A DNA stretch of 64,000 nucleotides, taken from Agrobacterium tumefaciens (GTDB taxonomy: Bacteria; Pseudomonadota; Alphaproteobacteria; Rhizobiales; Rhizobiaceae). Position 1 is the first letter of the stretch; every line of letters starts with the position of its first letter. The stretch lies in contig NZ_CP072308.1 in the NCBI RefSeq assembly GCF_017726655.1, positions 682,001 to 746,000 on the forward strand, written 5' to 3'. Below the pieces are notes generated by a model. That model was not told where the DNA came from, did not search any database, and was given only the letters and a program-made list of their open reading frames with translations. This document shows positions 12,786 through 29,097 of the stretch, piece after piece. A program made the translations under genes and the position numbers.

Positions 12786-12805
12786 ATTGTTGACTTGTAA
12801 ACAAT
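12786..12805. promoter_or_regulatory. Candidate HcaR (MarR-type) operator upstream of hcaR
   Basis: ATTGTTGACTTGTAAACAAT is a 20-base inverted repeat with nine of ten positions paired. It lies about 125 bases before the hcaR start and in the gap shared with the VOC gene. Its right half, CTTGTAAACAA, recurs exactly (reverse complement) in the divergent promoter at 18968-18978. MarR repressors usually bind such 16-20 base palindromes in their own promoters. The assignment is inference. Confidence 0.55.
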
Positions 12806-12931: not shown

Positions 12932-13411
12932 ATGGACCAACTCCCTCGCAGGATGACCGACGTCAATCTCGACCGGCTGGAGACAGCGCTCGGTTTCCTC
13001 ATCCGCCTCGCCCAGCTCAAGACCTATGACGATTTTTTCACGGCACTCGGGGATTCGGGCATGCGGCCGGGGGAGTTCTCCGTGCTTTTCGTCATCATGC
13101 ACAATCCCGGCATTCGTCAGACAGCGCTCGGCCAGCGGCTGATGATCAAGCGCGCGCATATGACGAAACTGATCCGTGCTTTCGAAGACAGGGGCCTGGT
13201 GACCCGCCGTGTTCCCGATGACGATCGCCGCGCCATCGAACTGACGCTTTCCGCGGAAGGCGTCGCGCATGTGCGCAAGGAAAGCGAGTGGTTCTTTTCG
13301 CACGAGGCAACGCTCGGCGCGGGCCTGACCACGGTCGAGCGCGATCAGTTCATCGCCCTGCTACATAAATTTCTAGGCATGAATTTGGGAGAAACAGGCC
13401 GTGAATATTGA
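12932..13411 (+). CDS. hcaR: MarR-family regulator of hydroxycinnamate degradation (HcaR-like)
   Basis: A winged helix-turn-helix is clear at about 60-115, with ALGQRLMIKRAHMTKLIRAF as the HTH and DDDRRAIELTLS as the wing. MarR proteins of phenylpropenoid clusters are repressors relieved by CoA thioesters or free hydroxycinnamates. It is the first gene of a unit with the amidohydrolase, whose GTG start overlaps it by 11 bases. In A. fabrum the equivalent gene is called hcaR. An ATG at 12953 is possible but has no better ribosome site. Confidence 0.85.
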   Translation: MDQLPRRMTDVNLDRLETALGFLIRLAQLKTYDDFFTALGDSGMRPGEFSVLFVIMHNPGIRQTALGQRLMIKRAHMTKLIRAFEDRGLVTRRVPDDDRRAIELTLSAEGVAHVRKESEWFFSHEATLGAGLTTVERDQFIALLHKFLGMNLGETGREY

Positions 13412-14276
13412 TGAACTCGTCGCCATAGATGTGCATACCCATGCCGAGGAGCCGTGCTGCGGCCCGCGCGATGATGGTTATGATGAATTTCAGGCCGGCA
13501 TGGCGAAATATTTCAAGAACCCCGCCGGTCACAAGGGCATGTTGCCCACGGTGCAGGAAACCGCCGCCTATTATCGCGAGCGCAAAATCGGCTGCGTGAT
13601 TTTTCCGGTCGATGCGGAACGGGAAACCGGTTTTCGCCGCTATGAAAATGAAGAGGTGGCGAAGATCGCTGCCGAGAACAGCGACATCATGATCCCTTTT
13701 GCGTCGATCGACCCCGCCAAGGGCAAGGCCGGCGCTCGCGAAGCGAGGCGTCTGGTGCGTGAGTTCGGGGTGAAAGGTTTCAAGTTTCACCCGACGATGC
13801 AAGGCTTTTACCCCAATGACCGCATGGCGTACCCGCTTTACGAAGCAATCGCCGAGGAAGGTGCAATCACACTTTTCCACACTGGTCAGACCGGGGTTGG
13901 CGCTGGCCTGCGCGGCGGCATGGCAATGCGGCTGAAGTTCTCAAATCCCATCCACCTCGATGACGTCGCGGTCGATTTCCCCGACATGCCGATCATTCTC
14001 GCGCACCCCTCCTTCCCGTGGCAGGAAGAGGCGCTCTCCGTCGCCACCCACAAGCCGAATGTGTACATCGACATGTCGGGGTGGTCGCCAAAGTATTTTC
14101 CGCCGATCCTCGTGCAATATGCCAATTCGCTGCTGAAACATAAGATGCTGTTCGGATCGGACTGGCCGGCGATGACACCGGAGCGCTGGCTCAACGATTT
14201 CGCCAATATTCCGATCAAGGACGAGGTTCGTCCGCTGATCCTCAAGGAAAACGCAAAAAGGCTGCTGAAGCTCTGA
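13401..14276 (+). CDS. Amidohydrolase-family enzyme, probable beta-ketoacyl-CoA cleaving enzyme of ferulate degradation
   Basis: The 291-residue protein has a full amidohydrolase-2 metal site: His12 and His14 (DVHTH), His160 (LFHTG), His202 (AHPSFPW) and Asp254 (FGSDWP). The family holds decarboxylases and hydratases acting on aromatic and dicarboxylic acids. In A. fabrum its counterpart was shown to be needed for ferulate use and proposed to act as a beta-keto thiolase on 4-hydroxy-3-methoxyphenyl-beta-ketopropionyl-CoA. A metal-dependent retro-Claisen hydrolysis is more in keeping with the fold, which is my inference. GTG start with GGGAG upstream. Confidence 0.8.
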   Translation: MNIDELVAIDVHTHAEEPCCGPRDDGYDEFQAGMAKYFKNPAGHKGMLPTVQETAAYYRERKIGCVIFPVDAERETGFRRYENEEVAKIAAENSDIMIPFASIDPAKGKAGAREARRLVREFGVKGFKFHPTMQGFYPNDRMAYPLYEAIAEEGAITLFHTGQTGVGAGLRGGMAMRLKFSNPIHLDDVAVDFPDMPIILAHPSFPWQEEALSVATHKPNVYIDMSGWSPKYFPPILVQYANSLLKHKMLFGSDWPAMTPERWLNDFANIPIKDEVRPLILKENAKRLLKL

Positions 14277-14301
14277 GAACAGAGGCACCTGTCATTCCAT
14301 G

Positions 14302-14324
14302 GGCCCCGGTGTGGAACCGGGGCC
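14302..14324 (+). terminator. Rho-independent terminator after the amidohydrolase gene
   Basis: GGCCCCGGT (14302-14310) pairs with ACCGGGGCC (14316-14324) across a five-base loop and is followed by TTTTGTTT. It ends the hcaR-amidohydrolase transcript. Confidence 0.85.
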
Positions 14325-14554
14325 TTTTGTTTGTACGAATGAGCGCCTGAAGGGTCGGCAATCGTCGCAAAAAGGCAAAGGCCCACCGTTGACGGCAGGC
14401 CTCTTTATTCGTTCACGCGGTTCCAGTGAAATCTGGACGCCACTCAGTTCATTGCATTGTTCAGGTCTTCAGGGCCGCAAAACTCACTGACGCGCCTTTG
14501 CCGGGCCTGCGCGGGGTCGCGCCGTGTCATCTGCACGGCGCAACCTCAACCCTG
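14325..14554. other. Gap between convergent genes
   Basis: About 230 bases hold no supported gene. On the minus strand GGCC...GGCC arms with an inner CCGT/ACGG pair near 14381-14402 are followed by a T-rich stretch (TTTGCCTTTTT), which may end the demethylase transcript, but the stem is imperfect. Confidence 0.35.
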
Positions 14555-15973
14555 TCAGAAGGCTTTTTTGGTGCGCCAGCTGTCTGCGTAATTGTCACGG
14601 GCTTCGGCTGCATAGGGCGTCGGCGAGACGCGGACACGGATTTCTTTCTGCTTGTGGCGCTCCGTCGAGGTCTTGCCAGACCCGCCATTCGGCTCTCCCC
14701 AGACGAGGGTGAGAACGTCGCCGACGTTGATATCGTGTTCAACGATGCCAAGCGAAAGCATGCAGCGTTCATTGTAGGAATAGCCGGTGAACATTGACAT
14801 GCCGACCTGCTTGCCACCCTTCAAGATCAGATCCGCGCCGGTGGAAGCGTAGTTGGCCTGCGGGAAGTCGATCCATTTGTAATGGTCTTCGCCCGGACGG
14901 AACGCGGATGCGATGACATCCACCACATCATCGGCATTCCACTCGAAGGTGACCTTCTTGCGCTGCGTCTTGCCTTTCATGGCCTCCAGAGCCGACTTGC
15001 CGATGAAGTCATCCTTTTTCCAGCCGATATAGAAGTCGTAGCCCAGCTCGAACGGGTTGACGTAATAGTCCTCGATATTATCGGAAACGAAGCTGCCGCC
15101 GATCGCACCCGTCGCCTCATAGCTGTCGGCGCCCAGCCAGTCGCGATAGTCCTTCAACATGCCGTCGCCGGTGTAGATGCCCGGCAGTGGCGACGGGATC
15201 CAGCCCGATTCAAGCGTGTTGGTGGAATAGGCGCGGCTGCCGCAACGCACGAGATTGACGCCGGCCTCCTTGGCTGCTTCCAGAATGCAGGAGAGGATGT
15301 AGCTCTTGTCTTCATAGGGCCCCCAGACCTCGAGGCCCGGCGCGCCAGACATGCCGTGGCGGAGCGCCTGGACCTTCTTCGAGCCGATATTGATCCAGTC
15401 GACATGGAAGAACTTGATGTCAGGTATTGGGCCGCGGTTCAATTTCTCGAAGATCTTCGGCGCATCGGGGCCTTGGATTTGATAGCGGTAATGGGTGCGC
15501 AGCACGCGCTCGCCTTCCGGCCGCGACGGGGACCGCGGATCGTGCTTGATGCGGACGTTCCACTTCCCATAGGCCGCGCAGAACATCAGCCAGCTGGAGG
15601 TCGGTGCACGGCCGACGAGGATGAACTTGTCCTGCCGTTCACGGAAAATGATGTGGTCCCCGATGACGTGCCCGTTCGGCGTGACCGGCACAAAGTGCTT
15701 CGCGCGATTGAGGTCGAAATTCGAGAAAGAGTTGATGCCGTGATGGGCAAGAAATTTTTCGGCGTCGGGGCCTTCGACGATCAGCTCATCCATATGATGG
15801 GACTGGTCAAACAGGACCGCGCCATCGCGCCAGGCAGCCTGCTCGGAGCGCCAATTGCTAAACTCCCCGGCGACAACCGGGTATACATACATACCGATTT
15901 TCGAGTTGCGAAGCATTTCAACCGGGTTCGGATATTGCTTCAAAACCTCGGTCAGACTGGAATTCGCCATCAT
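14555..15973 (-). CDS. Tetrahydrofolate-dependent aromatic O-demethylase (LigM/DesA-like, GcvT fold)
   Basis: The 472-residue protein is of the GcvT/aminomethyltransferase fold, with the typical N-terminal YVYPVVAGEFSNWRSEQAAWRD and FDQSHHMDELIVEGPDAEKFL. It ends with a GcvT C-terminal barrel (GMSMFTGYSYNERCMLSLGIV). LigM of Sphingobium moves the methyl of vanillate to tetrahydrofolate, giving protocatechuate and 5-methyl-tetrahydrofolate. The A. fabrum counterpart is required for ferulate degradation. GGAGG lies five bases before the first ATG. A TGTATACA palindrome at 15999-16008 lies 26 bases upstream, indicating control by the adjacent GntR protein. Confidence 0.88.
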   Translation of the reverse strand: MMANSSLTEVLKQYPNPVEMLRNSKIGMYVYPVVAGEFSNWRSEQAAWRDGAVLFDQSHHMDELIVEGPDAEKFLAHHGINSFSNFDLNRAKHFVPVTPNGHVIGDHIIFRERQDKFILVGRAPTSSWLMFCAAYGKWNVRIKHDPRSPSRPEGERVLRTHYRYQIQGPDAPKIFEKLNRGPIPDIKFFHVDWINIGSKKVQALRHGMSGAPGLEVWGPYEDKSYILSCILEAAKEAGVNLVRCGSRAYSTNTLESGWIPSPLPGIYTGDGMLKDYRDWLGADSYEATGAIGGSFVSDNIEDYYVNPFELGYDFYIGWKKDDFIGKSALEAMKGKTQRKKVTFEWNADDVVDVIASAFRPGEDHYKWIDFPQANYASTGADLILKGGKQVGMSMFTGYSYNERCMLSLGIVEHDINVGDVLTLVWGEPNGGSGKTSTERHKQKEIRVRVSPTPYAAEARDNYADSWRTKKAF

Positions 15974-15998
15974 TATCTCCTCCCTGGCAATCGCGTCT

Positions 15999-16008
15999 AT
16001 GTATACAT
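15999..16008. promoter_or_regulatory. TGTATACA palindrome upstream of the demethylase gene
   Basis: ATGTATACAT is a perfect ten-base palindrome ending 26 bases before the start codon of the O-demethylase gene. The same TGTATACA core recurs upstream of the GntR gene and the metF-like gene. It is the probable operator of the neighbouring GntR repressor. Confidence 0.7.
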
Positions 16009-16077
16009 GAAACGCCGGGCAACGATAAATTGCAAGCGGAAAATTTCGCCTTTCAAGAGCGCATCGGCAAAAACAAA

Positions 16078-16099
16078 GGCGGCTCCCAAAGGGGCCGCC
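16078..16099 (-). terminator. Rho-independent terminator after the GntR gene
   Basis: GGCGGC (16078-16083) and GCCGCC (16094-16099), extended by CCC/GGG, form a hairpin. On the minus strand it is followed by TTTGTTTTTG. It lies 27 bases after the GntR stop and isolates that gene from the demethylase gene. Confidence 0.8.
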
Positions 16100-16125
16100 A
16101 GTATATTTCCTGAGGTTTCCGGGGC

Positions 16126-16857
16126 TTAGTCGCTGATCAGCGCCAGACCCGGCATCTGCGCGATCAATTCCGGCGCTTCGCGGATCATGTATTCAAGATT
16201 GGTGCGCGCCGTGCGCGAATGCTCCCGCGCGATTGCCTCCGCACGTGCGCCCTCCCGCGCAGCAATGGCCGCCACGATTGCCTTGTGCTGCTCCTGCGCA
16301 CCCCTTAGCGACCGGCGAAACGCGCCGATATTTGCCTTGTCGGGAAGGAAAGCGGAAGGTGACGCGAACGGCAGTGAACTTGCGCGCTCCACCTCACGGC
16401 GGATCATCTCGCTGCCGCAGAGCGCCGCAAGCTGATGGTGAAACACCTGATTGAGCGCGGAGTAACGATCAAAATCGACGTCATCGACACGGTCGCCAAA
16501 GCACAGATCCAGCTCGTGTATCGTGCGCCCAATCTCCTCGAGCGCACCCCTTGAAGCGCCGCGTTCCGCCGCTAGCCTGGCTGCCGTTCCCTCCATGACG
16601 CCGCGAATTTCAATGGCATCCACGACATCGGCGTAACCGAACCGACGCACGACAAACCCGCCGCCAGGCAGGCGGTTGAGCAACCCCTCCTCCGTCAGGC
16701 GGGAAAGCGCCTCGCGCACGGGGGTTCGGGAGATATCCAGAAGTTCGGCTGTCGGCACCTCAAAGAGCCGCATACCGCCGGGGAGCTCGCCACTCAGGAT
16801 TTTTTCCCTGAGTTCGATCACCGCCCGGCCGCCATGTGTTGCCGCATCGCCCTTCAT
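16126..16857 (-). CDS. GntR-family (FadR/VanR type, FCD domain) transcriptional regulator
   Basis: The N-terminal winged helix carries the GntR signature LLDISRTPVREALSRLTEEGLL, and the rest is an all-helical FCD ligand domain with metal-type His residues (LNQVFHHQLAAL). I start at the ATG at 16857, which has GGAGG at the right spacing, giving 243 residues. An ATG at 16902 would lie next to the operator. A GTGTATACAC site at 16904-16913 suggests self-repression. Similar VanR proteins respond to vanillate, so vanillate or a product is the likely ligand (inference). Confidence 0.88.
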   Translation of the reverse strand: MKGDAATHGGRAVIELREKILSGELPGGMRLFEVPTAELLDISRTPVREALSRLTEEGLLNRLPGGGFVVRRFGYADVVDAIEIRGVMEGTAARLAAERGASRGALEEIGRTIHELDLCFGDRVDDVDFDRYSALNQVFHHQLAALCGSEMIRREVERASSLPFASPSAFLPDKANIGAFRRSLRGAQEQHKAIVAAIAAREGARAEAIAREHSRTARTNLEYMIREAPELIAQMPGLALISD

Positions 16858-16903
16858 ACCACCCTCCGACCTACCGCCATTACGTCGCGGCACATGTTCC
16901 ACA

Positions 16904-16913
16904 GTGTATACAC
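16904..16913. promoter_or_regulatory. TGTATACA palindrome upstream of the GntR gene
   Basis: GTGTATACAC is a perfect palindrome 47 bases before the preferred GntR start, in the gap shared with the divergent metF-like gene. It contains the same TGTATACA core as the sites at 15999 and 17101. Confidence 0.65.
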
Positions 16914-17100
16914 CGCCACTCGCCCGTTACGAGATATAATCCTCCCCGTGGTTTGTGACCAGTCAAGGATAGCGTGAGCTCGACGTAAGAGATTGGAATA
17001 CCCCGAAAAATTCGAACGATGTATTCACCGAAACTAAATAAGCCAAGCAAAAATGTCAATATTTCAGATTTTTTGCGACTTTTCGATTGAAACGCCGAGC

Positions 17101-17116
17101 ATTATGTATACATAAT
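17101..17116. promoter_or_regulatory. 16-base palindrome upstream of the metF-like gene
   Basis: ATTATGTATACATAAT is a perfect 16-base palindrome ending 24 bases before the metF-like start codon. It is the longest of the three TGTATACA sites and is placed at nearly the same distance from its gene as the demethylase site is from its own. The surrounding sequence is AT-rich, as expected of a promoter. Confidence 0.75.
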
Positions 17117-17140
17117 CGAGCCTCGCTAAGGGAGAAAGCG

Positions 17141-18061
17141 ATGGGATGGTCAAGTTTCTGGGAGAATTCGGCTCCGGTGGAACCCGCGGTTGCGGCCGGC
17201 GACATCGTTCGTGGATGGTCAATCGAGGTCATGCCGCGCACGGCGGCGAAGATAACCAAATTCAAGGATATCCTGCCTGAGGGCACGCGGGTCTATATCG
17301 CCCACATAGAGGGCACGCCGATTGCCGACATGGTATCGACCGCGAAACGCCTGAACGATGAAGGCTTTCCAGTGATGCCACACATTCCGGCCCGGGGCAT
17401 CGGAGGTAAAAGCGAGCTTGAGGACTGGCTGAAGCGCTATAGGGGAGAGGCTGGCGTGACGCAGGCGCTCTTGCTCGGCGGCGGCCAGAAAGAAGCGGTC
17501 GGTGCCTTCTCGAGCTCGATCGACATGATCGAGACGGGTCTTTTTGACCAGATGGGCTTCACGCATCTTCATCTGGCCGGTCATCCCGAGGGCAATCGCG
17601 ACATTGATCGCGACGGCTCATCGCGCGGGGTCGATCAAGCCCTGTTGTGGAAGCAGAATTTTGCTGACCGGACAGACGCCCGGCTCGCTTTGACCACGCA
17701 GTTCGCCTTCGATGCTGATGTCGTCACGGAATGGGCGACGCGGATCCGCGCGATGGGCGTCACGATCCCGATCCACGTCGGCGTTGCCGGACCGACAAAG
17801 CTGCAGACGCTGATAAAATTTGCCATTGCCTGCGGTGTCGGGCCGTCCCTGAAGGTGCTGCAGAAGCGCGCGCTCGATCTTTCGAGGCTTTTCGTTCCCT
17901 ATGAGCCGACCGATGTCATCGCGGGGCTCGTTGCCCATAAGGCGGCTCATCCCGATAGCCTGATCGAGCAGGTTCATATCTTTCCGCTGGGCGGCATTAC
18001 GCCAGCCGCTGAATGGATGAAAAAACATGCATCATCAGCGGCTTTCGCCAATGTCGCCTGA
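17141..18061 (+). CDS. metF: MetF-like methylenetetrahydrofolate reductase
   Basis: The 306-residue protein fits the flavin-dependent MetF fold: IEVMPRTAAKITKF near the N-terminus, VYIAHIEGTP, VMPHIPARG, LLLGGGQKEA and PIHVGVAGPT are the successive barrel strands. In LigM systems such a reductase runs in the oxidative direction, converting the 5-methyl-tetrahydrofolate made by demethylation to 5,10-methylene-tetrahydrofolate. The ATG at 17141 has GGGAG nine bases upstream. An earlier TTG at 17087 would place the operator inside the gene. Sequence similarity to E. coli MetF is remote, so a special role rather than methionine synthesis is likely. Confidence 0.8.
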   Translation: MGWSSFWENSAPVEPAVAAGDIVRGWSIEVMPRTAAKITKFKDILPEGTRVYIAHIEGTPIADMVSTAKRLNDEGFPVMPHIPARGIGGKSELEDWLKRYRGEAGVTQALLLGGGQKEAVGAFSSSIDMIETGLFDQMGFTHLHLAGHPEGNRDIDRDGSSRGVDQALLWKQNFADRTDARLALTTQFAFDADVVTEWATRIRAMGVTIPIHVGVAGPTKLQTLIKFAIACGVGPSLKVLQKRALDLSRLFVPYEPTDVIAGLVAHKAAHPDSLIEQVHIFPLGGITPAAEWMKKHASSAAFANVA

Positions 18062-18119
18062 GAAAACCTTTTCCCAGGCGGCATCGCCCTATTGCGAGGT
18101 GACCGCATTTATCGACGGA

Positions 18120-18917
18120 TCAGGCCGTCGCATCCGGCGCTTTCAGCCTCGCGGCACGCTTTTCAAGGAAGGCTCGCAGACGCTCCTCGGCTTCGGGGCT
18201 GGCTGCAGTGAAAGAGGAAATGAAGGATTCGACGAACAAGCCGTCGTCCTTGGCCATGTCCTGAATGCGGGGAAGCGCATTGATGACCGCGTAGTTCGAC
18301 AGCGGCGCATTGGACGCGGCCGCGGTGGCGAGCTGATGCGCCTTGGCGAGCGCCTCACCGCGCGGCACCACATATTGTACGAGGTTCCATCGCTCGGCTT
18401 CGTCCGGCGAGGCAACACGGCCGGTCAGCATCATGTCGCTCATGCGGGCAACGCCCATCAGCCGGGCGATGCGTACAGACCCGCCGCCTCCGACGAAGAT
18501 GCCGCGCTGGCCCTCTGGGAGCGCAAAAAAGGCGCTCTCATCGGCAACGCGCAGATGGGTGGAGGCGGCAAGCTCCAGTCCGCCGCCGACCACGGCGCCG
18601 TGCAGCGCCGACACCCAGGGAATGGTGCCGTGTTCGATCTGCGAGAAGACGGCATGCCAGCGGCGGGAGCCACGCACGCCTTCGATCGGGGTCTTGGAAA
18701 TATGCTCGCCGAGATCGAGACCGGCGCAGAAATGGTCGCCGTGCCCGAAGATGACGGCGGCGCGCGCTTCACTTTCCGCCCTCGCCGCGGCACCGGCAAT
18801 GGCTTCCACGAAACGGTCGCTAATGGCGTTGCGTTTTTGCGGCCGGTTCAGCCCCACAAGGGCGACGTCGCCGCGCAGTTCATAGGTGACGAATTCGTCT
18901 GTCGTTTTTTCGTTCAT
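18120..18917 (-). CDS. Crotonase-family enoyl-CoA hydratase, probable feruloyl-CoA hydratase
   Basis: The 265-residue protein has the crotonase oxyanion-hole segments FCAGLDL (63-69) and GAVVGGGLELA (108-117). Both catalytic acids of true hydratases are in place: Glu115 in GGGLE and Glu135 in LPEGQ, twenty residues apart. As I recall, hydroxycinnamoyl-CoA hydratase-lyase (HCHL) has Ser at the first of these. Retention of Glu fits a hydratase that stops at the beta-hydroxyacyl-CoA and leaves cleavage to later enzymes. The A. fabrum counterpart is required for ferulate use. GGAG is eight bases before the chosen ATG. Confidence 0.85.
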   Translation of the reverse strand: MNEKTTDEFVTYELRGDVALVGLNRPQKRNAISDRFVEAIAGAAARAESEARAAVIFGHGDHFCAGLDLGEHISKTPIEGVRGSRRWHAVFSQIEHGTIPWVSALHGAVVGGGLELAASTHLRVADESAFFALPEGQRGIFVGGGGSVRIARLMGVARMSDMMLTGRVASPDEAERWNLVQYVVPRGEALAKAHQLATAAASNAPLSNYAVINALPRIQDMAKDDGLFVESFISSFTAASPEAEERLRAFLEKRAARLKAPDATA

Positions 18918-18967
18918 GCCGACGTCTCCAATAGTCCAAGGCAAATACACAATTAGCTTTCCGCATT

Positions 18968-18996
18968 TTGTTTACAAGGATATTATTTTCTTGTAA
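18968..18996. promoter_or_regulatory. Candidate HcaR operator in the hydratase/CoA-ligase divergent promoter
   Basis: TTGTTTACAAG (18968-18978) is the exact reverse complement of the CTTGTAAACAA half of the hcaR promoter palindrome. A second arm, CTTGTAA at 18990-18996, forms an inverted repeat with TTACAAG at 18972-18978 around 11 bases. It is centred in the 144-base gap between two divergent catabolic genes, where one repressor could control both. Confidence 0.6.
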
Positions 18997-19061
18997 TCAT
19001 TTTTTTGACAAAAGATTATTTGCACGGTCACGTGAATGACGTCTGGGAGGAGGTCGTGACG

Positions 19062-20897
19062 ATGAAGGTGAAGCTTTGGTCGCCCGATGTCGCATGGGAG
19101 AAGCGGCCGAACGGCGAGATCATGGTCTGGCGGAACGATCCGCTTGGCCCCTACCCGCACAAACTCAATGAACGCCTCGTTCACTGGGCGGTGACAACGC
19201 CCGATCGCACCTGGATGGCGGATCGACAGGGGCGTGAACCGTGGCGTGAAGTCAGCTATGGGCAGGCCCTCGATAAGGTCCGCCGTATCGCCCAGTTCCT
19301 GCTTGACAAGGATCTCTCGGTCGAAACGCCGCTTCTGGTCCTTTCGGAAAACTCCATCGAACATGCGCTGATGGTGCTTGCGGCCCAGCATGTCGGTATT
19401 GCCTCGGCAGCGATCACCCCGGCCTATGCAACCGCGTCCGATCTCGGCAAGCTTCACGATATCCGCAGGCAGATCACACCCGGCATGGTATTTGCCGAGG
19501 ACGCGGCACCGTTCCGGCGCGCCCTGGAAGAGGTGTTTGGTGACGGCACGCCGCTCGTCGGCCTCAGCAATCTGCCGCAGGATCGTCCCAACACATTCCG
19601 GTTCGACACGTTGCTCGAGACCGTGCCTACGCAAGCGGTGGATCGCGCCTTCGATTCGGTTGGCGCTGATACCGTTGCCAAATTCCTTTTCACGTCAGGC
19701 ACGACCGGCTCGCCCAAGGCCGTCATTCAGACACAGCGGATGCTGTGCTCCAATCAGGAGATGATTGCCGACTGTTATGCCTATTTTCGCGATGAACCGC
19801 CCGTGGTCGTTGACTGGGCGCCGTGGAACCATACGGCAGCCGGCAACAAGGTTTTCAACCTCGTCATCTATAATGGCGGCACCTATTATATTGATCGGGG
19901 CAAGCCGAGCCCGGCGCTGATCGGCCAGACCATCGATAATCTGCGTGACGTTTCTCCTACCTGGTATTTTAACGTTCCCGCTGGCCACGAGATGCTGGTT
20001 CAGGCGATGCGCAAGGACGAGGCGCTGTGCCGCACCTTCTTTCGTGACCTGAAATTGCTGATGTATGCCGGCGCGGGCATGGCCCAGCACACCTGGGATG
20101 CGCTGATCGAGCTTTCGGTTGCGACGGTTGGCCATGCGGTCCCGATGGGTGCCGGCCTCGGCTCGACGGAGACTGCCCCCTTCTCGCTGTTCTGCACCGA
20201 ACCGCAGGAGAAGCCAGGCAATATCGGCATCCCCGCGCAGGGCGTAACGATGAAGCTCGTGCCGGTCGATGATCGATTTGAGCTGAGGCTGAAAGGCCCG
20301 AACATCACGCCGGGTTACTGGCGTAACGCAGAGCTGACCGCGGCCGCTTTTGATGAGGAAGGCTTCTATCGCATCGGCGATACGGTGAAGTTCGCAGTTC
20401 CTGAGGATCCTCGCCAGGGCTTTTATTTCGATGGCCGCATTGCCGAGAATTTCAAGCTACAGACAGGCACCTGGGTTGCTGTCGGGCCGCTGCGCGCTCA
20501 ATTCGTCAACATGTTCTCGGGCCTCATCCGCGATGCTGTCATCACCGGCGAGAACCGCGCCGAACTCGGAGCGCTAGTGGTTCCCTTCATGCCCGCCCTG
20601 CGCGAGCTTGTTCCGGGCTCACACCAGTTGTCCGATGCAGAGATCATCCGGCATCCCATTGTGAGGGCGCAAATTGCTGCAAAGCTTTCCGCGCATCAGA
20701 AACAGGCAAGCGGTTCTGCAAGCCGCGTCATGCGCCTTATGGTCATCGAAGAGCCCCTTCGCTTCGAAAAGGGTGAGGTCACGGACAAGGGATCGATCAA
20801 TCAGCGTGCAGTCCTTCTGCATCGCAAGGAACTGGTCGACACACTCTACGGCGATGCGCCCCAGGTCATCACGGTCAACAAGGAGGTGGCAGCATGA
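19062..20897 (+). CDS. fcs: Feruloyl-CoA synthetase (ANL superfamily, AMP-forming)
   Basis: This enzyme activates hydroxycinnamic acids with ATP and CoA. The ATP-binding P-loop TSGTTGSPK is at 211-219 and GSTE at 367-370. The YRIGDTVKF hinge region and the FKLQTGTWVAVG segment are typical of feruloyl-CoA synthases. At 611 residues it is longer than 4CL-type ligases, with an N-terminal section (AWEKRPNGEIMVWRNDPLGPY) characteristic of this branch. The ATG at 19062 is preceded by GGAGGAGG. Earlier TTG/GTG codons are less likely. Overlaps the SDR gene by four bases. Confidence 0.92.
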   Translation: MKVKLWSPDVAWEKRPNGEIMVWRNDPLGPYPHKLNERLVHWAVTTPDRTWMADRQGREPWREVSYGQALDKVRRIAQFLLDKDLSVETPLLVLSENSIEHALMVLAAQHVGIASAAITPAYATASDLGKLHDIRRQITPGMVFAEDAAPFRRALEEVFGDGTPLVGLSNLPQDRPNTFRFDTLLETVPTQAVDRAFDSVGADTVAKFLFTSGTTGSPKAVIQTQRMLCSNQEMIADCYAYFRDEPPVVVDWAPWNHTAAGNKVFNLVIYNGGTYYIDRGKPSPALIGQTIDNLRDVSPTWYFNVPAGHEMLVQAMRKDEALCRTFFRDLKLLMYAGAGMAQHTWDALIELSVATVGHAVPMGAGLGSTETAPFSLFCTEPQEKPGNIGIPAQGVTMKLVPVDDRFELRLKGPNITPGYWRNAELTAAAFDEEGFYRIGDTVKFAVPEDPRQGFYFDGRIAENFKLQTGTWVAVGPLRAQFVNMFSGLIRDAVITGENRAELGALVVPFMPALRELVPGSHQLSDAEIIRHPIVRAQIAAKLSAHQKQASGSASRVMRLMVIEEPLRFEKGEVTDKGSINQRAVLLHRKELVDTLYGDAPQVITVNKEVAA

Positions 20898-21655
20898 AAA
20901 TCGAAGGCGCAGGCGCTCTTGTAACAGGTGCGGCATCCGGCCTCGGCGCGGCAGTGGCCCGCATGCTCGCGGCCCGCGGGGCTGCGGTCACGATTTTTGA
21001 CCGGAATGGTGAAGCCGGCCAGAAACTGGCGACGGAAATCGGCGCTACAGCCATCGAGGGTGACGTGGCAAGCGATGCCGATGCGCAACTCGCAGTCAAC
21101 GCGGCAGCCTCCGCCAGGGGCGGGCTTCGCATTCTCGTCAATTGCGCCGGGGTCGGCACGGCTGGCCGCATTCTCGGGCGCGAAGGCCCTCAGCCGCTTG
21201 GTGATTTCGAAAAGGTTATCCGCGTCAACTTGCTCGGTACCTTCAACATGATGCGCCTTGCAGCCGCCCGTATGGCTGAGGTGGAGCCGATCGACGGCGC
21301 AGACAACGGCGTGATCGTCAATACGGCCTCGGTTGCCGCCTTTGAAGGTCAGGTGGGACAGGCAGCCTATGCCGCGTCAAAAGGCGGTATCGTTTCGCTG
21401 GCCCTGCCCGCGGCGCGTGAGCTTGCCCGCTTCCGCATTCGGGTCAACACCGTCGCGCCGGGCATCTTTATGACGCCCTTGCTCCAGGGTTTGCCACAGG
21501 AGGTTCAGGAAAGCCTTGCGAGCCAGATACCCCATCCGTCCCGGCTCGGCGATCCCGCCGAATTCGCCGATGCGGTCCGGTTCCTCATCGAGAACGATTA
21601 CATGAACGGCGACGTCATCCGGCTGGATGGCGCGATCCGCATGCAGCCGCGGTGA
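20894..21655 (+). CDS. Short-chain dehydrogenase/reductase, probable beta-hydroxyacyl-CoA dehydrogenase
   Basis: A classical SDR of 253 residues with the NAD-binding TGAASGLG at 11-18, an NCAG motif, and Tyr159/Lys163 in YAASK. The closest group by feel is the type II 3-hydroxyacyl-CoA dehydrogenase (HSD10-like) group, whose members end in [15 protein letters not shown] sequences. In the island it would oxidise 4-hydroxy-3-methoxyphenyl-beta-hydroxypropionyl-CoA to the beta-keto form. The A. fabrum counterpart is essential for ferulate use. GGAGG precedes the ATG, which overlaps the ligase stop (ATGA). Confidence 0.88.
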
Positions 21656-21659
21656 TACG

Positions 21660-23252
21660 ATGAGTTTTTCAAGGCAGGCCACAAGCACATTAGAGCTTCT
21701 GAAAGCAACGCCGGGCTGGCGTCGTATCCAGTCGGTTCGCGGCGATTGTGACGATGCTCTCGCCGAGGCCGTTCTCCACGAAGCGGCACGTTTTGCCGAA
21801 ACCGTTCTTGCGCCGCTGAACACAGCGGCCGATCGTCAGGGCTGCACTGTCGTCGATGGCCGCGTTCTTGTTCCCGACGGTTTCGGTGATGCTTTCAGCC
21901 AGCATGGGGCCGATGGCTGGCTCGCCATGGACGTGCCGGAACGCTTCGGTGGCCAAGGCCTGCCGCTATCGATCCAGACCGCTTGCGCACCGCTTTTCGA
22001 ACGCGCCTGTGTCGCGTTGATGATGGCCTCCGGGTCTACCCGAGCGGCCTGCCATCTGATCGCCGAGGTGGCGGACGATGCCGTTGCGAAGGAATGGGTT
22101 CCGCGTCTTGCGCGCGGAGAATGGGCGGCGACCATCTGCATCTCGGAGCCGGATGCCGGTTCTGATCTTGCGCGGCTGCGCAGCCGCGCTGTCTTGAGAG
22201 ACGGTGCGTGGCGCATCACCGGCTCGAAATTCTGGATATCTTTCGGCGATCACGACATGGCGGGCCGCATCGGCCACTGTCTGCTTGCCCGTACCGGTGA
22301 GGAGATCGGGACACGCGGCCTCAGCCTGTTTCTTGTGCCGGATGAAATCGACGGCCACCGCAATGGCGTCAGCTTGGACCGCATCGAGGAAAAGATGGGC
22401 CTGCACGGCTCGCCCACCTGCGCCCTGCGTTTTGAAGCTGCACGCGGCATCTTGCTCGGCGAAGAAGGACGCGGTCTTGCCCAGCTATTTGCCATGATCG
22501 AGTTGATGCGCCTGCAAACCGGCTGTCAGGGACTGGGGCTCGCCTCGGCCGCCATCGACATTGCGGAGAGCTATGCGCAGGAGCGTCTCCAGGGTGGCGA
22601 TCCGGCAAAACCCGCCATCCCGATCGCGCGCCACCCTGATATACGCCGCCAGCTCGAAGAGGCGCGGCTGCGCACGGAAACGCTGCGGGCCGCAACACTC
22701 GAACTTGCCACCGTCATGGACCTTGCCCGGCTCGAGCAGAATGAGAATTTGCGGGCCGATTTGCGGGCGCTGTCGGGCTGGCTGTTGCCGCTCGTCAAGA
22801 ATTTTGGTGCGGATGCCGGATTTACCGTCGCCAATCAGGCCATACAGATCTTGGGCGGGGCGGGTTACACGCGGGAATGGCCGCTGGAGCAATATCTGCG
22901 CGATGCGCGCGTGATGACCATTTACGAAGGCACCACTGGCATGCAGGCAATCGACCTTCTGACCCGCCGGCTTTGGCGCGATGGCGGAAGGGGCCTCGAG
23001 GTTTTTCTGGAACGCGCCCGCGAGGACCTCGCCGATTGTCCGACGGCAAAAGCAGGAGCGGCGAAGGCTACGCTTGAAGCTTTCGAGGCCGAGAGCCGGC
23101 GCATGGCCGCACTCGTAGATCAGCCTGAGACGGGCCTCTGGCAGGCCAACGCCTATCTAAATGCCGCCTGGGATGCTTTCGCCGCCTGGATGGCTGTTCG
23201 GGTCGAAGCCCTTTCAGCACTGCAACATTCGACGGCGGGGGAAGCTGCCTGA
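21660..23252 (+). CDS. Acyl-CoA dehydrogenase (DmdC-like)
   Basis: The 530-residue flavoprotein has an acyl-CoA dehydrogenase core (CISEPDAGSDLARLR, ITGSKFWISFGDH, GYTREWPLEQYLRDARV) and an extra C-terminal domain. This is the layout of the DmdC/long acyl-CoA dehydrogenase group of about 590 residues. The catalytic base is Glu423 in YEGTTGMQA. Its role is not required for ferulate, whose side chain is already unsaturated. It may desaturate dihydro-hydroxycinnamoyl-CoAs and feed them into the same route (inference). It begins five bases after the SDR gene; an earlier in-frame start at 21627 overlaps that gene and lacks support. Confidence 0.85.
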   Translation: MSFSRQATSTLELLKATPGWRRIQSVRGDCDDALAEAVLHEAARFAETVLAPLNTAADRQGCTVVDGRVLVPDGFGDAFSQHGADGWLAMDVPERFGGQGLPLSIQTACAPLFERACVALMMASGSTRAACHLIAEVADDAVAKEWVPRLARGEWAATICISEPDAGSDLARLRSRAVLRDGAWRITGSKFWISFGDHDMAGRIGHCLLARTGEEIGTRGLSLFLVPDEIDGHRNGVSLDRIEEKMGLHGSPTCALRFEAARGILLGEEGRGLAQLFAMIELMRLQTGCQGLGLASAAIDIAESYAQERLQGGDPAKPAIPIARHPDIRRQLEEARLRTETLRAATLELATVMDLARLEQNENLRADLRALSGWLLPLVKNFGADAGFTVANQAIQILGGAGYTREWPLEQYLRDARVMTIYEGTTGMQAIDLLTRRLWRDGGRGLEVFLERAREDLADCPTAKAGAAKATLEAFEAESRRMAALVDQPETGLWQANAYLNAAWDAFAAWMAVRVEALSALQHSTAGEAA

Positions 23253-23318
23253 TGTCGACGAGATACTGAAATGCATTTCCGGGCGCTCGTGAACGTCCGA
23301 TCATTGGGAGGAGAGACA

Positions 23319-24467
23319 ATGAAAAAGCGTATGATGACATGGATGGCAACGGCTGTTGCCCTGACGATGACGGCCGGCTCGGCTTTCGCCGATATCACCA
23401 TTGGCGTGACCATTCCGACGACCGGCCCGGGCGCTGCACTCGGCATACCGCTCAAGCAATCGATCGAATTATGGCCGTCCGAGATCGACGGTGAAAAGCT
23501 GAAGGTCATCCTGCTTGACGATGCCGGTGACCCCTCGGTTGCCACCACCAACGCGCGCCGCTTCGCCAATGACGATAAGGTGGATGTGATCGTCGGTTCT
23601 GCCCTCACGCCGGCTGCGATTGCTGTCGCAGGTGTGGCGAACGAGACGGAAGTGCCGCATTTCGCGCTCTCGCCAATTCCGCCGACGGCCGCAAAGAAAT
23701 GGAACTTCGTCATGCCGCAGTTCTCCACCGTCCTGGTGAAGAGCATGTTCGCCCGCATGCAGAAGGACGGTATCAAACGCGTCGCCTTTATCGGTTTTGC
23801 CGATTCCTACGGCCAGCAGTGGGTCGATGCGCTGAAGACCACGGGCAAGGATTATGGTCTCGAACTGGTTGCGGAGGAGCGTTATGCCCGCGCCGATACC
23901 TCTGTTTCCGGCCAGGTGCTGAAGTCGCTTGCCGCGCGTCCGGATGCCGTGTTCATCGGCGCATCCGGCACGGGTGCCGCCCTGCCCCAGATCGGCGTGC
24001 GCGAGCGTGGCTTCAAGGGCAAGATCTATGTCGTCTCGGGTGCGGTCACCTTCGATTTCCTGCGGATTGCCGGCAAGGCTGTTGAGAACACCGTGTTTTC
24101 CTCCGGCCCGGTCATGGTCGCGGAAGATCAACCGGACAGCTCTCCGACCAAGGAACAGGGCCTTGCCTATCTCAAGGCTCTCGAAGCCAAGTTCGGCGCG
24201 AACGCCCGAACCCAGTTCGGCTCGCATGTCTGGGATGTGATGGTGATCCTGAAGAAAGCCGTTCCGGTTGCGCTCAAAAAGGCAAAGCCCGGCACGCCCG
24301 AGTTCCGTGTCGCACTGCGCGATGCCATCGAGACAAGCGGGCCCTATAACGCCACGCACGGTGTCTATGAGTTCAAGGCAGACGATCATTATGGCCTCGA
24401 CCAGCGCGGCGTCGTGCTTCTGACGGCGAAAGACGGAAAGTTCGTACTACTGCCCGACGATAAATAA
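23319..24467 (+). CDS. Periplasmic substrate-binding protein of a branched-chain-type ABC transporter
   Basis: A Sec signal peptide (MKKRMMTWMATAVALTMTAG, cleavage after SAFA) is followed by a type I periplasmic binding fold (Peripla_BP_6) beginning ITIGVTIPTTGPGA. Members of this family bind amino acids and also aromatic acids such as benzoate and coumarate derivatives. Its place in the hydroxycinnamate island suggests uptake of phenylpropenoids or their products. GGGAGGAG lies just before the chosen ATG; a longer frame begins at 23271 without a signal peptide at its end. The length of 382 residues is normal. Confidence 0.88.
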   Translation: MKKRMMTWMATAVALTMTAGSAFADITIGVTIPTTGPGAALGIPLKQSIELWPSEIDGEKLKVILLDDAGDPSVATTNARRFANDDKVDVIVGSALTPAAIAVAGVANETEVPHFALSPIPPTAAKKWNFVMPQFSTVLVKSMFARMQKDGIKRVAFIGFADSYGQQWVDALKTTGKDYGLELVAEERYARADTSVSGQVLKSLAARPDAVFIGASGTGAALPQIGVRERGFKGKIYVVSGAVTFDFLRIAGKAVENTVFSSGPVMVAEDQPDSSPTKEQGLAYLKALEAKFGANARTQFGSHVWDVMVILKKAVPVALKKAKPGTPEFRVALRDAIETSGPYNATHGVYEFKADDHYGLDQRGVVLLTAKDGKFVLLPDDK

Positions 24468-24487
24468 TCGCCGGCACTTAACATCGA

Positions 24488-24508
24488 CCGGGGAGCCTGC
24501 CTCCCCGG
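24488..24508. repeat. GC-rich hairpin between binding protein and permease genes
   Basis: CCGGGGAG (24488-24495) and CTCCCCGG (24501-24508) form a perfect eight-pair stem with a five-base loop. There is no T tract. Such hairpins after binding-protein genes often protect the upstream message and give it higher expression than the membrane components. Confidence 0.55.
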
Positions 24509-24608
24509 CCCTGCCGCAAGCCCTTGGCGTCAGCGATACCCGCCGCGGATCGCCTGCCATTCAAAATATCCGTCACGCCTTACCGAGAGCCAAACCAAAG
24601 GGTGCATT

Positions 24609-25643
24609 TTGGACGCGACAATTGCCACATTCCTGATCCAGGACGGCGTCACCAATGGTGCGATCTACGCGCTGCTGGGGCTTGCCCTCGTTCTGGTCTT
24701 CGCCGTCACCCGGGTGATCTTCATTCCACAAGGTGAGTTTGTCGCCCATGGTGCGCTGACGCTCGCGCTACTCGATGCCGGGCGCGTACCTGGCACGCTG
24801 AAGCTGCTGTTATGCATGGGCGCCGTGGCCCTCCTGCTCGACCTCTGGGGAATGCGTCGGGGCCTGCGCCTCTCGGCGCTGCTGCGCGCGATGGCCATCA
24901 ACCTTGCGCTGCCGGGCCTCATTTACGGGCTGGTCGCCATTCTGGCGCCCATGCAACTGCCATCGTTCCTGCGCGCGCTCATTACGATCGCGATCATCGC
25001 GCCGATGGGATATTACGTTTACCGTATCGCCTACCGTCCGCTTGCCGACGCCTCCGTGCTCGTGCTTCTCATTGCTTCCGTTGGCGTGCATCTGGCACTG
25101 ATGGGGCTCGGGCTTGCCTTTTTCGGCCCGGAGGGCCTGCGTGCAGCGCCGTTGAGCGACGCCGGCTTCACGCTCGGGCCGATGCTCGTCAGCGCGCAAA
25201 GCATCTTCATCTATCTCGCGACAATTCTGGTGATGGTCGGCCTTTACTTCTTCTTCGAAAAGACGCTGCTCGGCAAAGCCCTGAAGGCAACGGCCATCAA
25301 CCGGCTCGGAGCACGCCTCGTCGGCGTTCGAACGGAACTGACCGGTGTCACCGCCTTTGTGCTCGCCGCTGCAATCGCGGCGGTATCGGGTGTACTGATT
25401 GGTCCAATCACCACCATCTTCTACGATACGGGCTTCCTGATCGGCCTCAAGGGCTTCGTTGCCGCCATTCTCGGCGGCATGGCAAGCTTCCCCGTCACGG
25501 CCATTGCCGCGATCGGCGTCGGGCTGATCGAGGCTTTCGCCTCCTTCTTCGCCAGCGATTTCAAGGAAATCATCGTGTTCGGCCTGATCGTGCCTGTGCT
25601 GATCTGGCTTTCCTTCGGTGCCAGCCATCATGAGGAAGAGTGA
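24609..25643 (+). CDS. Branched-chain-type ABC transporter permease (LivH-like)
   Basis: This integral membrane protein of 344 residues starts with [37 protein letters not shown]... features typical of LivH permeases. It also contains [23 protein letters not shown] near the C-terminus. It is 40-50 residues longer than LivH of E. coli, with an added hydrophobic stretch around 60-115. The TTG start at 24609 has AAAGGG six bases upstream. It is followed after one base by the permease-ATPase gene. Confidence 0.87.
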
Positions 25644-25644
25644 T

Positions 25645-27699
25645 ATGACCCTCGGCAGACATCTTTATCCCGCCATTGCCGCGCTACTTGTCGTCGCTCT
25701 CTTCCCGCTCATGCCGATCCCGCCATTCTGGGTGACGCTCGCGAACAATATCGGGCTTGCGTCTCTGGTTGCCATCGGGCTCGTGCTGTTGACCGGCGTT
25801 GGTGGCATGACTTCTTTCGGCCAGGCGGCCTTCTGCGGTTTCGGTGCCTATACGACAGCGGTCCTCACCACGGCCTATGGCTTTTCACCCTGGCTCACAT
25901 TGCCACTGGCGCTCCTCGTCGGCGTCATCGTCGCGCTGCCGCTGGGGTTGATGACGGTCAGGCTTTCCGGCCACTACCTGCCGCTCGGCACCATCGCCTG
26001 GGGGCTGGCGATCTATTACCTTTTCGGTCGCGTCGAGCTCCTCGGCCGGTACGACGGAATCTCGGGCATTCCACCGCTGTCCATCGGCAACGAACCGCTG
26101 ATGAGCAGCAGCTCGGTCTATTACGTGATCTGGATATTCGTCATTGCCGTGGCGATCGGCGCGCAGAACCTGCTCGACAGCCGTGTCGGGCGCGGCATTC
26201 GCGCCCTGCGTGGCGGCTCGCAGGCAGCGGAGGCCTTCGGCGTGAATATCGAGCAGGCCAAACTGACCGTTTTCGTCTTCGCAGCCGTTGTAGCAGCGCT
26301 GTCAGGCTGGCTTTACGCCCATATGCAGCGCTCGATCAACCCGACGCCTTTCGGGCTCGACATGGGCATCACCTATATGCTGATGGCCGTCGTCGGCGGT
26401 TCGGGACGGGTCGTCGGCGCCATCTTCGGCGCAGCCGTGGTGCTGGTGCTGAAAGAGGTGCTGCAACGGGTCCTGCCCGGCCTTGTCGGCACCTCGGTGA
26501 ATGTAGAAATGATCGTGTTTGGCGTGCTGCTCGTGCTGATCCTGCAGCTCTCGCGCGACGGTCTCTGGCCGCTTCTGGAAAAATACCTGCCGGCCCGGCC
26601 GCCTCGCGCCATCCGCCGGGCAGGCCCCGGTCTCGAAATGCGGGACATGCCTGCAACCGGCAGTCCGCTGGTCCGGGTCGATCGGGTGCGCAAGACATTC
26701 GGCGGGCTGACGGCGGTCAACGATGTCAGCTTTGACATCAAGGCCGGGCAGATCGTCGGCCTGATCGGTCCGAACGGCGCCGGCAAGAGCACGACTTTCA
26801 ATCTCATCACCGGAATCCTCGACCTTTCGGGCGGTGACGTCACCTATCAGGGACAGACGCTTTCGGGCCTCAATCCGCGGCTCATCGCCAAACGCGGCAT
26901 CGCCAGAACCTTTCAGCACGCCAAGGTCCTTCCGACCATGTCGGTCCTCGAAAACGTCGCTCTCGGCGCGCATCTGCGCGGCAATGCCGGCGTCTTCCGA
27001 AGCTTCTTGCGATTGGAGCGACAACAGGAGCAAGCTCTGCTTGCGGAAGCCGCGCATCAGCTCGATCGCGTCGGTCTCGGTGCCCATCGCGACCGCCCCG
27101 CCGGCGACCTCGCTCTCGGGCAGATCCGAATTCTGGAAATCGCCCGCGCGCTTTGCCTCAACCCAACCCTGCTGCTGCTCGACGAACCGGCGGCCGGTCT
27201 GCGCCACGGGGAAAAGCAGGAGCTCGCGACGCTGCTGAAAAAACTGCGGACCGAGGGCGTCAGCGTCCTGCTTGTCGAACATGACATGGGTTTCGTCATG
27301 GGGCTGGTCGACCACATCGTCGTGCTCGATTTCGGTACCCTGATCGCCGAAGGCAAGCCGGCTGAAATCCGGCAACATCCGGCCGTGATCGCGGCTTATC
27401 TTGGGGGGCAGCGTGAGCGGACATCTACTCGACATCAAAGACATCCACGTTGCCTATGGCCGGGCGGAAGTGGTGCATGGCATCTCGCTATCCATGACAT
27501 CGGGCAGCATCGTCACGGTCATCGGGGCGAACGGAGCGGGCAAAACCACGCTGCTGAACGCCATCATGGGTGTCGTGCCTTCGCGCGGGACCATTCTTTA
27601 CGACGGCGCGCCGGTGCCCGAGACAATCGAGGGCCGCGTTGCCGCCGGCCTTTGCCTCGTGCCGGAAAGGCGAGAATTATTCGGCTCGATGACGGTTGA
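25645..27699 (+). CDS. Branched-chain-type ABC transporter permease-ATPase fusion (LivM-LivG), 3' end apparently frameshifted
   Basis: Residues 1 to about 320 are a LivM permease ([18 protein letters not shown]) and the rest a LivG ATPase with Walker [10 protein letters not shown] (375-383), a degenerate signature LALGQ, and Walker B with D513-E514. LivM-LivG fusions are known. The reading frame passes a six-G run at 27403-27408 and then continues for about 97 residues of Arg/His-rich sequence overlapping the next gene. One extra G would end the protein at ...AYLGGAA with a TGA overlapping the next GTG. So the normal end is probably near 27416, and a -1 shift or a sequence error is present. 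Confidence 0.85.
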
Positions 27700-28138
27700 G
27701 GACAATATCGAACTTGGCGGTTTCCTGCGTTCCCGTCAGGAGCGCGACGAGACACGCGATGCTGTTTACACACTCTTCCCGCGCCTTCGCGAACGCCGCA
27801 AGCAGCTCGCCGGAACACTGTCCGGCGGCGAAAGGCAGATGCTGGCGCTCGCGCGGGCGTTGATGAGCCGGCCGAGACTGCTGCTTCTCGATGAGCCGAG
27901 CCTTGGACTTGCACCGCTGATTGTCGCCGAAATCCTGCGTATCGTCGCCGACCTGCGTCAAACCGGTGTCTCCATCCTGTTGGTCGAGCAGAATGCCCGC
28001 GCCGCGCTCGAAATTGCCGACGAAGCTTATCTCGTCGAACTTGGTGAAGTGCGCCGCTCAGGCCCAGCTTCCGAACTCGCCGTCGATCCCGCTCTGATGG
28101 CGAGTTATCTCGGGCCGGGCGAACACGCCATCCAGTGA
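27413..28138 (+). CDS. Branched-chain-type ABC transporter ATPase (LivF-like)
   Basis: The 241-residue protein has Walker [10 protein letters not shown] (38-46), the signature [15 protein letters not shown], and Walker [14 protein letters not shown], as in LivF ATPases. I choose GTG at 27413 ([15 protein letters not shown]), which follows a G-rich ribosome site. A TTG at 27401 is in frame but within the G run. It completes a transporter of binding protein, two permease domains and two ATPases. Confidence 0.9.
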
Positions 28139-28251: not shown

Positions 28252-29097
28252 ATGAATTACGTCCTGACGCTACGCTGCCCCAACAGAAGCGGAATTGTCG
28301 CTGCGGTCTCGGGCCGCATCGCACAGCATGGCGGCGATATTTATGAAGCTCAACAATTCGACGACCATGAAACGGGCATGTTTTTCATGCGTGTCGCCTT
28401 CTCCATGGCCGGCGACGAGGCAGGCTTTCGCAATGGACTTGCCGAGGAGATCGATCGCTTCGCTCTCGACGCCACGCTGCGTCCAGCAGGTGCGCCGCGC
28501 AAGCTGCTGCTGCTCGTTTCCCGCTTCGACCACTGCCTCGGCGATCTTCTCTATCGCCACCGCATCGGCGAATTGAATGCCGAGATCGTCGGCATCGTCG
28601 GCAACCACCCCCGCGAGGCCCTGAACCTCACGCTGATGGGCGGTATAAAGTACCATCACCTGCCGGTGACAAAAGACAACAAGGCCGAACAGGAAACACG
28701 CATCAAGGACATCATCGAAGAAACGGGCACCGAACTCGTCGTTCTTGCCCGCTACATGCAGATCCTGTCGGACAACTTCTCCGAATACTTATCCGGGCGC
28801 TGCATCAACATTCATCACTCCTTTCTGCCTGGTTTCAAAGGCGCAAAGCCCTATCACCAAGCCCATGAGAGGGGCGTCAAAATGATCGGTGCAACGGCCC
28901 ATTACGTCACCCGCGATCTCGATGAAGGGCCGATCATCTGCCAGGACGTCGAGCCGGTCAGCCACGCCGATACACCGGATGAGCTGGTCCGCAAGGGACG
29001 CGACATCGAGCGACGCGTGTTGGCCCGGGCGGTCTCATGGCACCTTGAGGACCGGGTGCTTCTCAACAAGAACAAGACGGTCGTTTTCGCGCGATAG
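28252..29097 (+). CDS. purU: Formyltetrahydrofolate deformylase
   Basis: PurU hydrolyses 10-formyl-tetrahydrofolate to formate and tetrahydrofolate. The 281-residue protein has an N-terminal ACT domain ([17 protein letters not shown], about 1-85) and a formyltransferase-like catalytic domain with [19 protein letters not shown] and the DLDEGPII segment with the catalytic Asp. AGGAGG precedes the ATG. Its position after the demethylase/metF island suggests that it discharges the C1 units that come from methoxyl groups, with FolD (outside the window) linking the two (inference). Confidence 0.93.

Follow-up and report, generated by a model that had tools for sequence, protein, structure and literature searches.

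A 64,000-nucleotide stretch of Agrobacterium tumefaciens DNA (assembly GCF_017726655.1, contig NZ_CP072308.1, positions 682,001 to 746,000; hereafter the window) carries an island of genes that very probably (we put the chance at about 0.9) corresponds, in a different Agrobacterium species, to the SpG8-1b region of Agrobacterium fabrum, and that would convert ferulate to vanillate without vanillin as an intermediate before removing the methyl group. An earlier note, made from the sequence alone, had proposed a coenzyme A (CoA)-dependent beta-oxidative route from ferulate to vanillate with onward demethylation, and had added that such a route was already described genetically in A. fabrum; both statements agree with what is set out in passages of the A. 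fabrum work (PMC7797058). The proposal of a ferulate island is essentially correct, and islands of this kind have been described before. New here are the wider distribution of the island, the test of hydroxycinnamoyl-CoA hydratase-lyase (HCHL) and vanillin dehydrogenase, the enzyme assigned to cleavage, and the link to PurU.

All nine genes proposed between positions 12932 and 23252, from hcaR to an acyl-CoA dehydrogenase, were found in the order given, with their families assigned by Pfam and NCBIfam:

12932..13411, + strand: hcaR, MarR-family repressor, Atu1422 counterpart (Pfam MarR, 49 bits)
13401..14276, + strand: amidohydrolase (Amidohydro_2), Atu1421 counterpart, proposed CouO-like metal-dependent beta-ketoacyl-CoA hydrolase
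14555..15973, - strand: ligM, tetrahydrofolate (THF)-dependent vanillate O-demethylase, Atu1420 counterpart (NF047885; PDB 5x1i/5tl4 LigM, E about 1e-174)
16126..16854, - strand: GntR/FCD repressor, Atu1419 counterpart (PDB 6z74 match)
17141..18061, + strand: MetF-like methyl-THF oxidoreductase, Atu1418 counterpart (PDB 7xg9, E 1.9e-42)
18120..18917, - strand: feruloyl-CoA hydratase (crotonase, ECH), Atu1417 counterpart (family profile; Glu115 and Glu135)
19062..20897, + strand: feruloyl-CoA ligase (AMP-binding), Atu1416 counterpart (Pfam AMP-binding, 142 bits; open reading frame opens at 19005)
20894..21655, + strand: short-chain dehydrogenase/reductase (SDR), beta-hydroxyacyl-CoA dehydrogenase, Atu1415 counterpart (Pfam adh_short, 153 bits)
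21660..23252, + strand: acyl-CoA dehydrogenase (Pfam)

The starts at 17141, 19062 and 21660 were chosen by homology or gene spacing and are likely only. The ligase scored 714 bits against NF009232, under its cut-off of 777, and the HcaR protein is 92% identical to the copy in G006, a C58-like genome, and 97% identical to that of Agrobacterium salinitolerans. The proposed extent held for the nine genes and failed as a boundary, as the + strand run that begins at the ligase continues past 23252 through genes for a transporter and purU, up to 29097. Clustering of these genes is beyond chance, because their orthologues are clustered in many named Rhizobiales loci and because the exact 10-base GntR operator occurs twice in the window, whereas 100 shuffles gave it 0.00 times on average.

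As described in parts of the account of SpG8-1b in A. fabrum C58 (Atu1415-Atu1422; PMC7797058), Atu1416 is the ligase, Atu1417 the hydratase, Atu1415 the dehydrogenase and Atu1421 a 'beta-keto-thiolase'; Atu1420 is the THF-dependent demethylase and Atu1418 the MetF-like protein, and HcaR and Atu1419 are the repressors. All six enzymes and both repressors recur in the window, ordered as these gene numbers imply, together with GntR palindromes at the 190-bp spacing, and in G006 the island has the same site beside enolase and kdsA. The window's island differs from SpG8-1b in belonging to another species, in having a dyad-keeping variant for one palindrome, and in the addition of purU.

With the order of steps, the repressors and the GntR effector taken over by analogy from this counterpart, the ligase would form feruloyl-CoA (or p-coumaroyl-CoA), the crotonase would add water without cleaving, and the SDR would turn the beta-hydroxyl into a beta-ketone. 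The amidohydrolase would split the resulting beta-ketoacyl-CoA, most likely by means of a metal-activated water, into free vanillate and acetyl-CoA, a release that would require no vanillin, thiolase or thioesterase. LigM would then transfer the methoxyl methyl to THF, the MetF-like enzyme would oxidise methyl-THF to methylene-THF, the published GntR-releasing signal, and protocatechuate would pass to PcaGH. The genes for the latter, pcaH (TIGR02422) and pcaG (TIGR02423), both over cut-off, lie on the second contig of the window's genome (G000; 5.08 Mb, two contigs) with a gene for a pcaF-type thiolase nearby.

Proposed cleavage and hydration of the CoA thioesters

The scheme of activation, hydration, oxidation and cleavage stands, although the earlier note had named no enzyme for the last step. 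Given the sequence evidence, cleavage is best assigned to the amidohydrolase acting as a CouO-like beta-ketoacyl-CoA hydrolase, with hydrolysis the most likely mechanism. The protein shares 86% identity with a plasmid-encoded protein annotated as 4-hydroxyphenyl-beta-ketoacyl-CoA hydrolase and 62% with one from a Rhodococcus opacus plasmid. Its candidate metal ligands, picked by what we take to be the ligand pattern of the amidohydrolase superfamily, are invariant across related loci, and in structure comparison its fold came close to those of 5-carboxyvanillate decarboxylase LigW and of pyrone-dicarboxylate hydrolases. Across 62 related loci, the amidohydrolase was present in 36, a thiolase in 8 and both in none, a split that partly tracks relatedness and includes some loci cut by contig ends; in the 45 that have an SDR, it is accompanied by the amidohydrolase in 34 and by a thiolase in 6. 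Pfam gave no thiolase or thioesterase family among the island proteins scanned, and a thiolase inside the island was rejected as a candidate for lack of a family match. CouO itself is, in the sections of two reports that deal with it, a beta-ketoacyl-CoA hydrolase giving the free acid (PMC4737184, PMC9618137). The cou pathway of Rhodococcus jostii RHA1, as partly laid out in PMC4737184, is likewise a CoA-dependent deacetylation by an amidohydrolase-superfamily enzyme with a free aromatic acid as product; it differs in being actinobacterial, and the kinship of its enzyme to the window amidohydrolase was gauged via the 62% identical R. opacus protein, not CouO. On these sequence grounds, a name can be proposed for the cleavage enzyme of the vanillin-free route.

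Several observations weigh against the assignment. Both amidohydrolase and thiolase are missing from five of the 45 SDR loci (contig ends truncate some), a fold in common with LigW-type enzymes would not by itself indicate function, kinship to CouO is seen only via the 86% and 62% identical relatives, and the cleavage enzyme Atu1421 is named in the passages concerned a beta-keto-thiolase, not a hydrolase (PMC7797058). That published name, together with 7 Thiolase_N matches in the genome outside the island and the 8 loci with a thiolase and no amidohydrolase, would fit a true CoA-dependent thiolysis, by the amidohydrolase or by a thiolase encoded elsewhere, followed by a thioesterase; we consider this unlikely in view of the invariant candidate ligands of an Amidohydro_2 protein, the scan of the island, and the free acid released by CouO in the part of PMC4737184 that describes it. 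Plasmid-borne relatives of the amidohydrolase (H26-H40) were also observed at 35-48% identity in haloarchaea, Thermomicrobium and Sphaerotilus.

With residues numbered from the ATG at 18917, positions 115 and 135 of the hydratase are both Glu, as had been noted, and both are invariant in 63 of 63 crotonases (those of the 62 related loci and the window). Five HCHLs of sister species (six loci tried, five sequences obtained), called by a match over the NF006588 cut-off of 276 bits, share Glu135 but carry Gly or Asn in place of Glu115, and are 22-26% identical to the window hydratase. These comparisons bear out the preference for a true hydratase, as does the genome, in which no HCHL over the NF006588 cut-off was found, the best crotonase reaching 141 bits; 9 of 61 genomes pass this cut-off, 8 of them within Agrobacterium, and G000 is not among them. 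As a vanillin-releasing lyase, the crotonase was rejected on Glu115 and on this score.

The claim that no vanillin dehydrogenase gene is present holds for the island but not for the genome, in which the search proposed in the earlier note found 20 Aldedh matches. One aldehyde dehydrogenase (ALDH), at C2:1870222, is 61-63% identical to an ALDH within about 2.5 kb of the HCHL in 6 of 8 sister-species HCHL loci; of the other two loci, one has weaker ALDH matches only and one has none. By blastp, four of five HCHL-linked ALDHs had this protein as their best match in G000 (61-64%), with the next ALDH at 32-36%. NCBIfam could not single out vanillin dehydrogenases, as this ALDH and two HCHL-linked ALDHs fell under every cut-off among the 25 families listed. 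A candidate vanillin-type ALDH encoded elsewhere counts against the vanillin-free route, and a vanillin-oxidising ALDH may exist in the genome, but no HCHL was found there to supply it with vanillin from ferulate. ALDH matches were counted in the 62 hydratase-related loci to see whether an ALDH ever replaces the SDR and amidohydrolase beside close hydratases; at E 1e-20 they occurred in just three (L038, L057, near the locus end, and L081), and the open reading frame lists of four loci without SDR and amidohydrolase (L051, L054, L056 and L078) gave nothing decisive. It is thus highly improbable that the crotonase is a hydratase-lyase freeing vanillin for oxidation to vanillate by an ALDH encoded elsewhere, a reading that the 61-64% identical ALDH favours but that conflicts with the Glu retained where HCHLs lack it, with the low identity to HCHLs and with the rarity of ALDHs in related loci, and that leaves the SDR and amidohydrolase without a role.

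The demethylation module and its regulation

The O-demethylase scored over the LigM model NF047885 (655 bits, cut-off 580) and under the DesA model (566 bits, cut-off 800). The MetF-like protein gave a weak match to TIGR00676 (28 bits) and none in Pfam; its single solved relative is a 5,10-methylenetetrahydrofolate reductase (MTHFR), and the presence of its gene in the island is accounted for by the THF-dependent, LigM type of the demethylase. For comparison, ligM loci were taken from 41 of 54 other genomes with a LigM match, those of lower best identity being left out. Since none of these 41 loci has the amidohydrolase or the hydratase, the demethylation module is separable, and it goes with either route, because in genome G011 ligM, gntR and purU are also found near an HCHL gene.

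The GntR protein aligns with PDB 6z74 over residues 18-258 and is 92% identical to the G006 copy. According to the relevant passages of PMC7797058, 6z74 is Atu1419 of A. fabrum, methylene-THF is the signal that releases this repressor, and its operator is a 10-mer palindrome in three identical copies, two of which are separated by 190 bp, with a degenerate copy in the demethylase gene 109 bp off. In the window, palindromes occupy the positions expected from that account: two are exact, one is a variant that keeps the dyad and one is degenerate. G006 has three exact copies, two at the 190-bp spacing. The operators and predicted sites are:

12795..12804: reverse complement of TTGTTTACAA, predicted HcaR-type site upstream of hcaR
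15879..15888: degenerate GntR palindrome GGGTATACAT within ligM, 110 bp from the exact site at 15999
15999..16008: GntR operator ATGTATACAT upstream of ligM, exact match
16904..16913: variant GntR operator GTGTATACAC with intact dyad, spaced 190 bp from the site at 17104
17104..17113: GntR operator ATGTATACAT upstream of the metF-like gene, exact match
18968..18977: predicted HcaR-type site TTGTTTACAA between hydratase and ligase

Prediction of TTGTTTACAA as the HcaR site draws its weight from recurrence across loci: with at most one mismatch the word was found in 23 of 35 hydratase-ligase intergenic regions (0.38 expected), whereas its presence in two window promoters alone is not significant (estimate about 0.1). 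Ten of the 12 regions without it are only 49-71 bases as bounded by the script, and two are longer (L047, L052); a third window copy, at 11600, lies inside kdsA. Copies of ATGTATACAT were also seen several kilobases from ligM in L136 and L147-L150, and in L147-L150 they are near a liv-type binding-protein match, such that a vanillate importer may belong to the GntR regulon there.

PurU and the transporter genes

The rest of the + strand run comprises:

23271..28138, + strand: branched-chain-type ATP-binding cassette (ABC) importer, substrate-binding protein (SBP), livH, livMG, livF (Pfam)
28252..29097, + strand: purU, formyl-THF deformylase of the ligM-linked clade (TIGR00655, 330 bits, cut-off 286)

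A PurU-like match of some kind turned up in each of the 61 genomes searched, but identity of at least 78% to the window PurU was found, besides the window, in G011 and G033 only, where gntR, ligM and metF lie no more than about 7 kb from the gene. Three Devosia loci (L044, L046 and L048) carry purU at 79-82% together with ligase, hydratase, SDR, amidohydrolase (cut by a contig end in L044), ligM and gntR. Such a purU is present in 10 of the 41 ligM loci, 8 of these also with a metF-like gene. In a 28-row tree, the window PurU grouped with ligM-linked PurUs (11 rows, 99/95; 15 rows, 100/99), apart from the genome's other full-length PurU (L182) and from the PurUs of G006 and of the A. salinitolerans genome G032; the exceptions were a linked row on the other side (L119) and one on a long branch (L144).

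The gene suggests that methoxyl carbon may be removed as formate (formyl-THF to formate and THF). In Sphingobium SYK-6, one-carbon handling includes a LigH step. Whether the ligM-linked PurU clade is a dedicated outlet for the methoxyl carbon, replacing that step here and tied in with the ferulate operon instead of the GntR regulon, is in our estimate an evenly balanced question. In such an outlet, the methyl placed on THF by LigM would be brought by the MetF-like enzyme to methylene-THF, lifting the GntR repressor as well; FolD would convert this to formyl-THF, and PurU would hydrolyse the latter irreversibly to formate and release THF for the next demethylation. The LigM-MTHFR module of SYK-6 (PMC12585457) similarly joins THF-dependent demethylation to a reversed MTHFR yielding methylene-THF, but the window has PurU, and no match to formyl-THF synthetase was found in its genome. 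Such a PurU may be the one-carbon outlet that has been missing from THF-dependent O-demethylation, a matter of consequence for ferulate and lignin metabolism.

Two points tell against the outlet: no GntR-type or HcaR-type site was found in the 300 bp upstream of the window purU, and among 15 linked purU loci just 5 have a GntR core at most 300 bp upstream, four of these 5 belonging to a single genus. The first of these would also be expected if purU merely adjoined the pathway and were unrelated to it, as would its absence from the G006 and G032 islands, its distance of about 11 kb from ligM, and a short GC-rich inverted repeat, with no T run, in the livF-purU gap. This explanation is the less likely of the two, though well short of negligible, given the grouping of the window PurU with ligM-linked PurUs, the 10 ligM loci with such a gene, and the position of purU at the close of a one-strand run starting at the ligase; the scan gave no + strand terminator-like site between livF and purU. 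No paper joining ligM and purU was found among the openly available papers searched, in which one genome-model paper names both apart, and the link is not claimed as unprinted.

The ABC importer genes, present at 88-98% identity in the other two complete islands (G006 and G032), have a possible role in aromatic acid uptake. The acyl-CoA dehydrogenase, close to the hydratase in 31 of the 38 loci with hydratase identity of at least 70%, possibly serves in dihydro-hydroxycinnamoyl-CoA oxidation. In livMG (window 25618-27699), the livM permease and livG ATPase are fused; the frame extends to 693 amino acids across the livF start, two relatives end at about 596 amino acids, and a sequencing error is possible.

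Distribution in Agrobacterium

Between G000 and the C58-like G006, DNA identity is 91% for enolase, 87.5% for kdsA and 79-88% for island genes; with the A. salinitolerans G032 the values are 91%, 87% and 88-95%. Judged by these identities, the window's species is different from that of G006. Both the G006 and the G032 islands adjoin enolase and kdsA. The amidohydrolase, at 88% identity or more, is encoded in 7 of 37 Agrobacterium genomes, G000 included (two more at 29% were not counted). Four of the seven (G016, G021, G030 and G033) have the core but no LigM or GntR within the 19.5 kb examined; L040, on what is by length the same contig as that of the G030 locus, has a MetF-like match, and G033 has a ligM-gntR-metF-purU group on a separate contig. 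The SpG8-1b region was called absent from other Agrobacterium species in a passage of its description (PMC7797058), which does not hold for these genomes: a region described as A. fabrum-specific occurs whole in two or more further Agrobacterium species, and four others share its core amidohydrolase.

The HCHL/vanillin dehydrogenase route, as partly described in PMC10458429, also takes in feruloyl-CoA and gives out vanillate, but it passes through vanillin, and the 8 of 37 Agrobacterium genomes that have an HCHL are without the amidohydrolase at 88% or more. Genomes in the genus sample thus carry the vanillin-free route or an HCHL, never both, although zero overlap has a probability of 0.15 by chance and is suggestive only; outside the genus, G053 has both. 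The eight HCHL genomes (loci L112-L119) are G019, G020, G027, G010, G011, G001, G029 and G025.

Between kdsA and hcaR, at window 11784-12680, lies a gene for a Glyoxalase_3-type protein that is less conserved than its neighbours, being 72% identical in protein sequence to its G006 copy compared with 92-99% for HcaR and the amidohydrolase.

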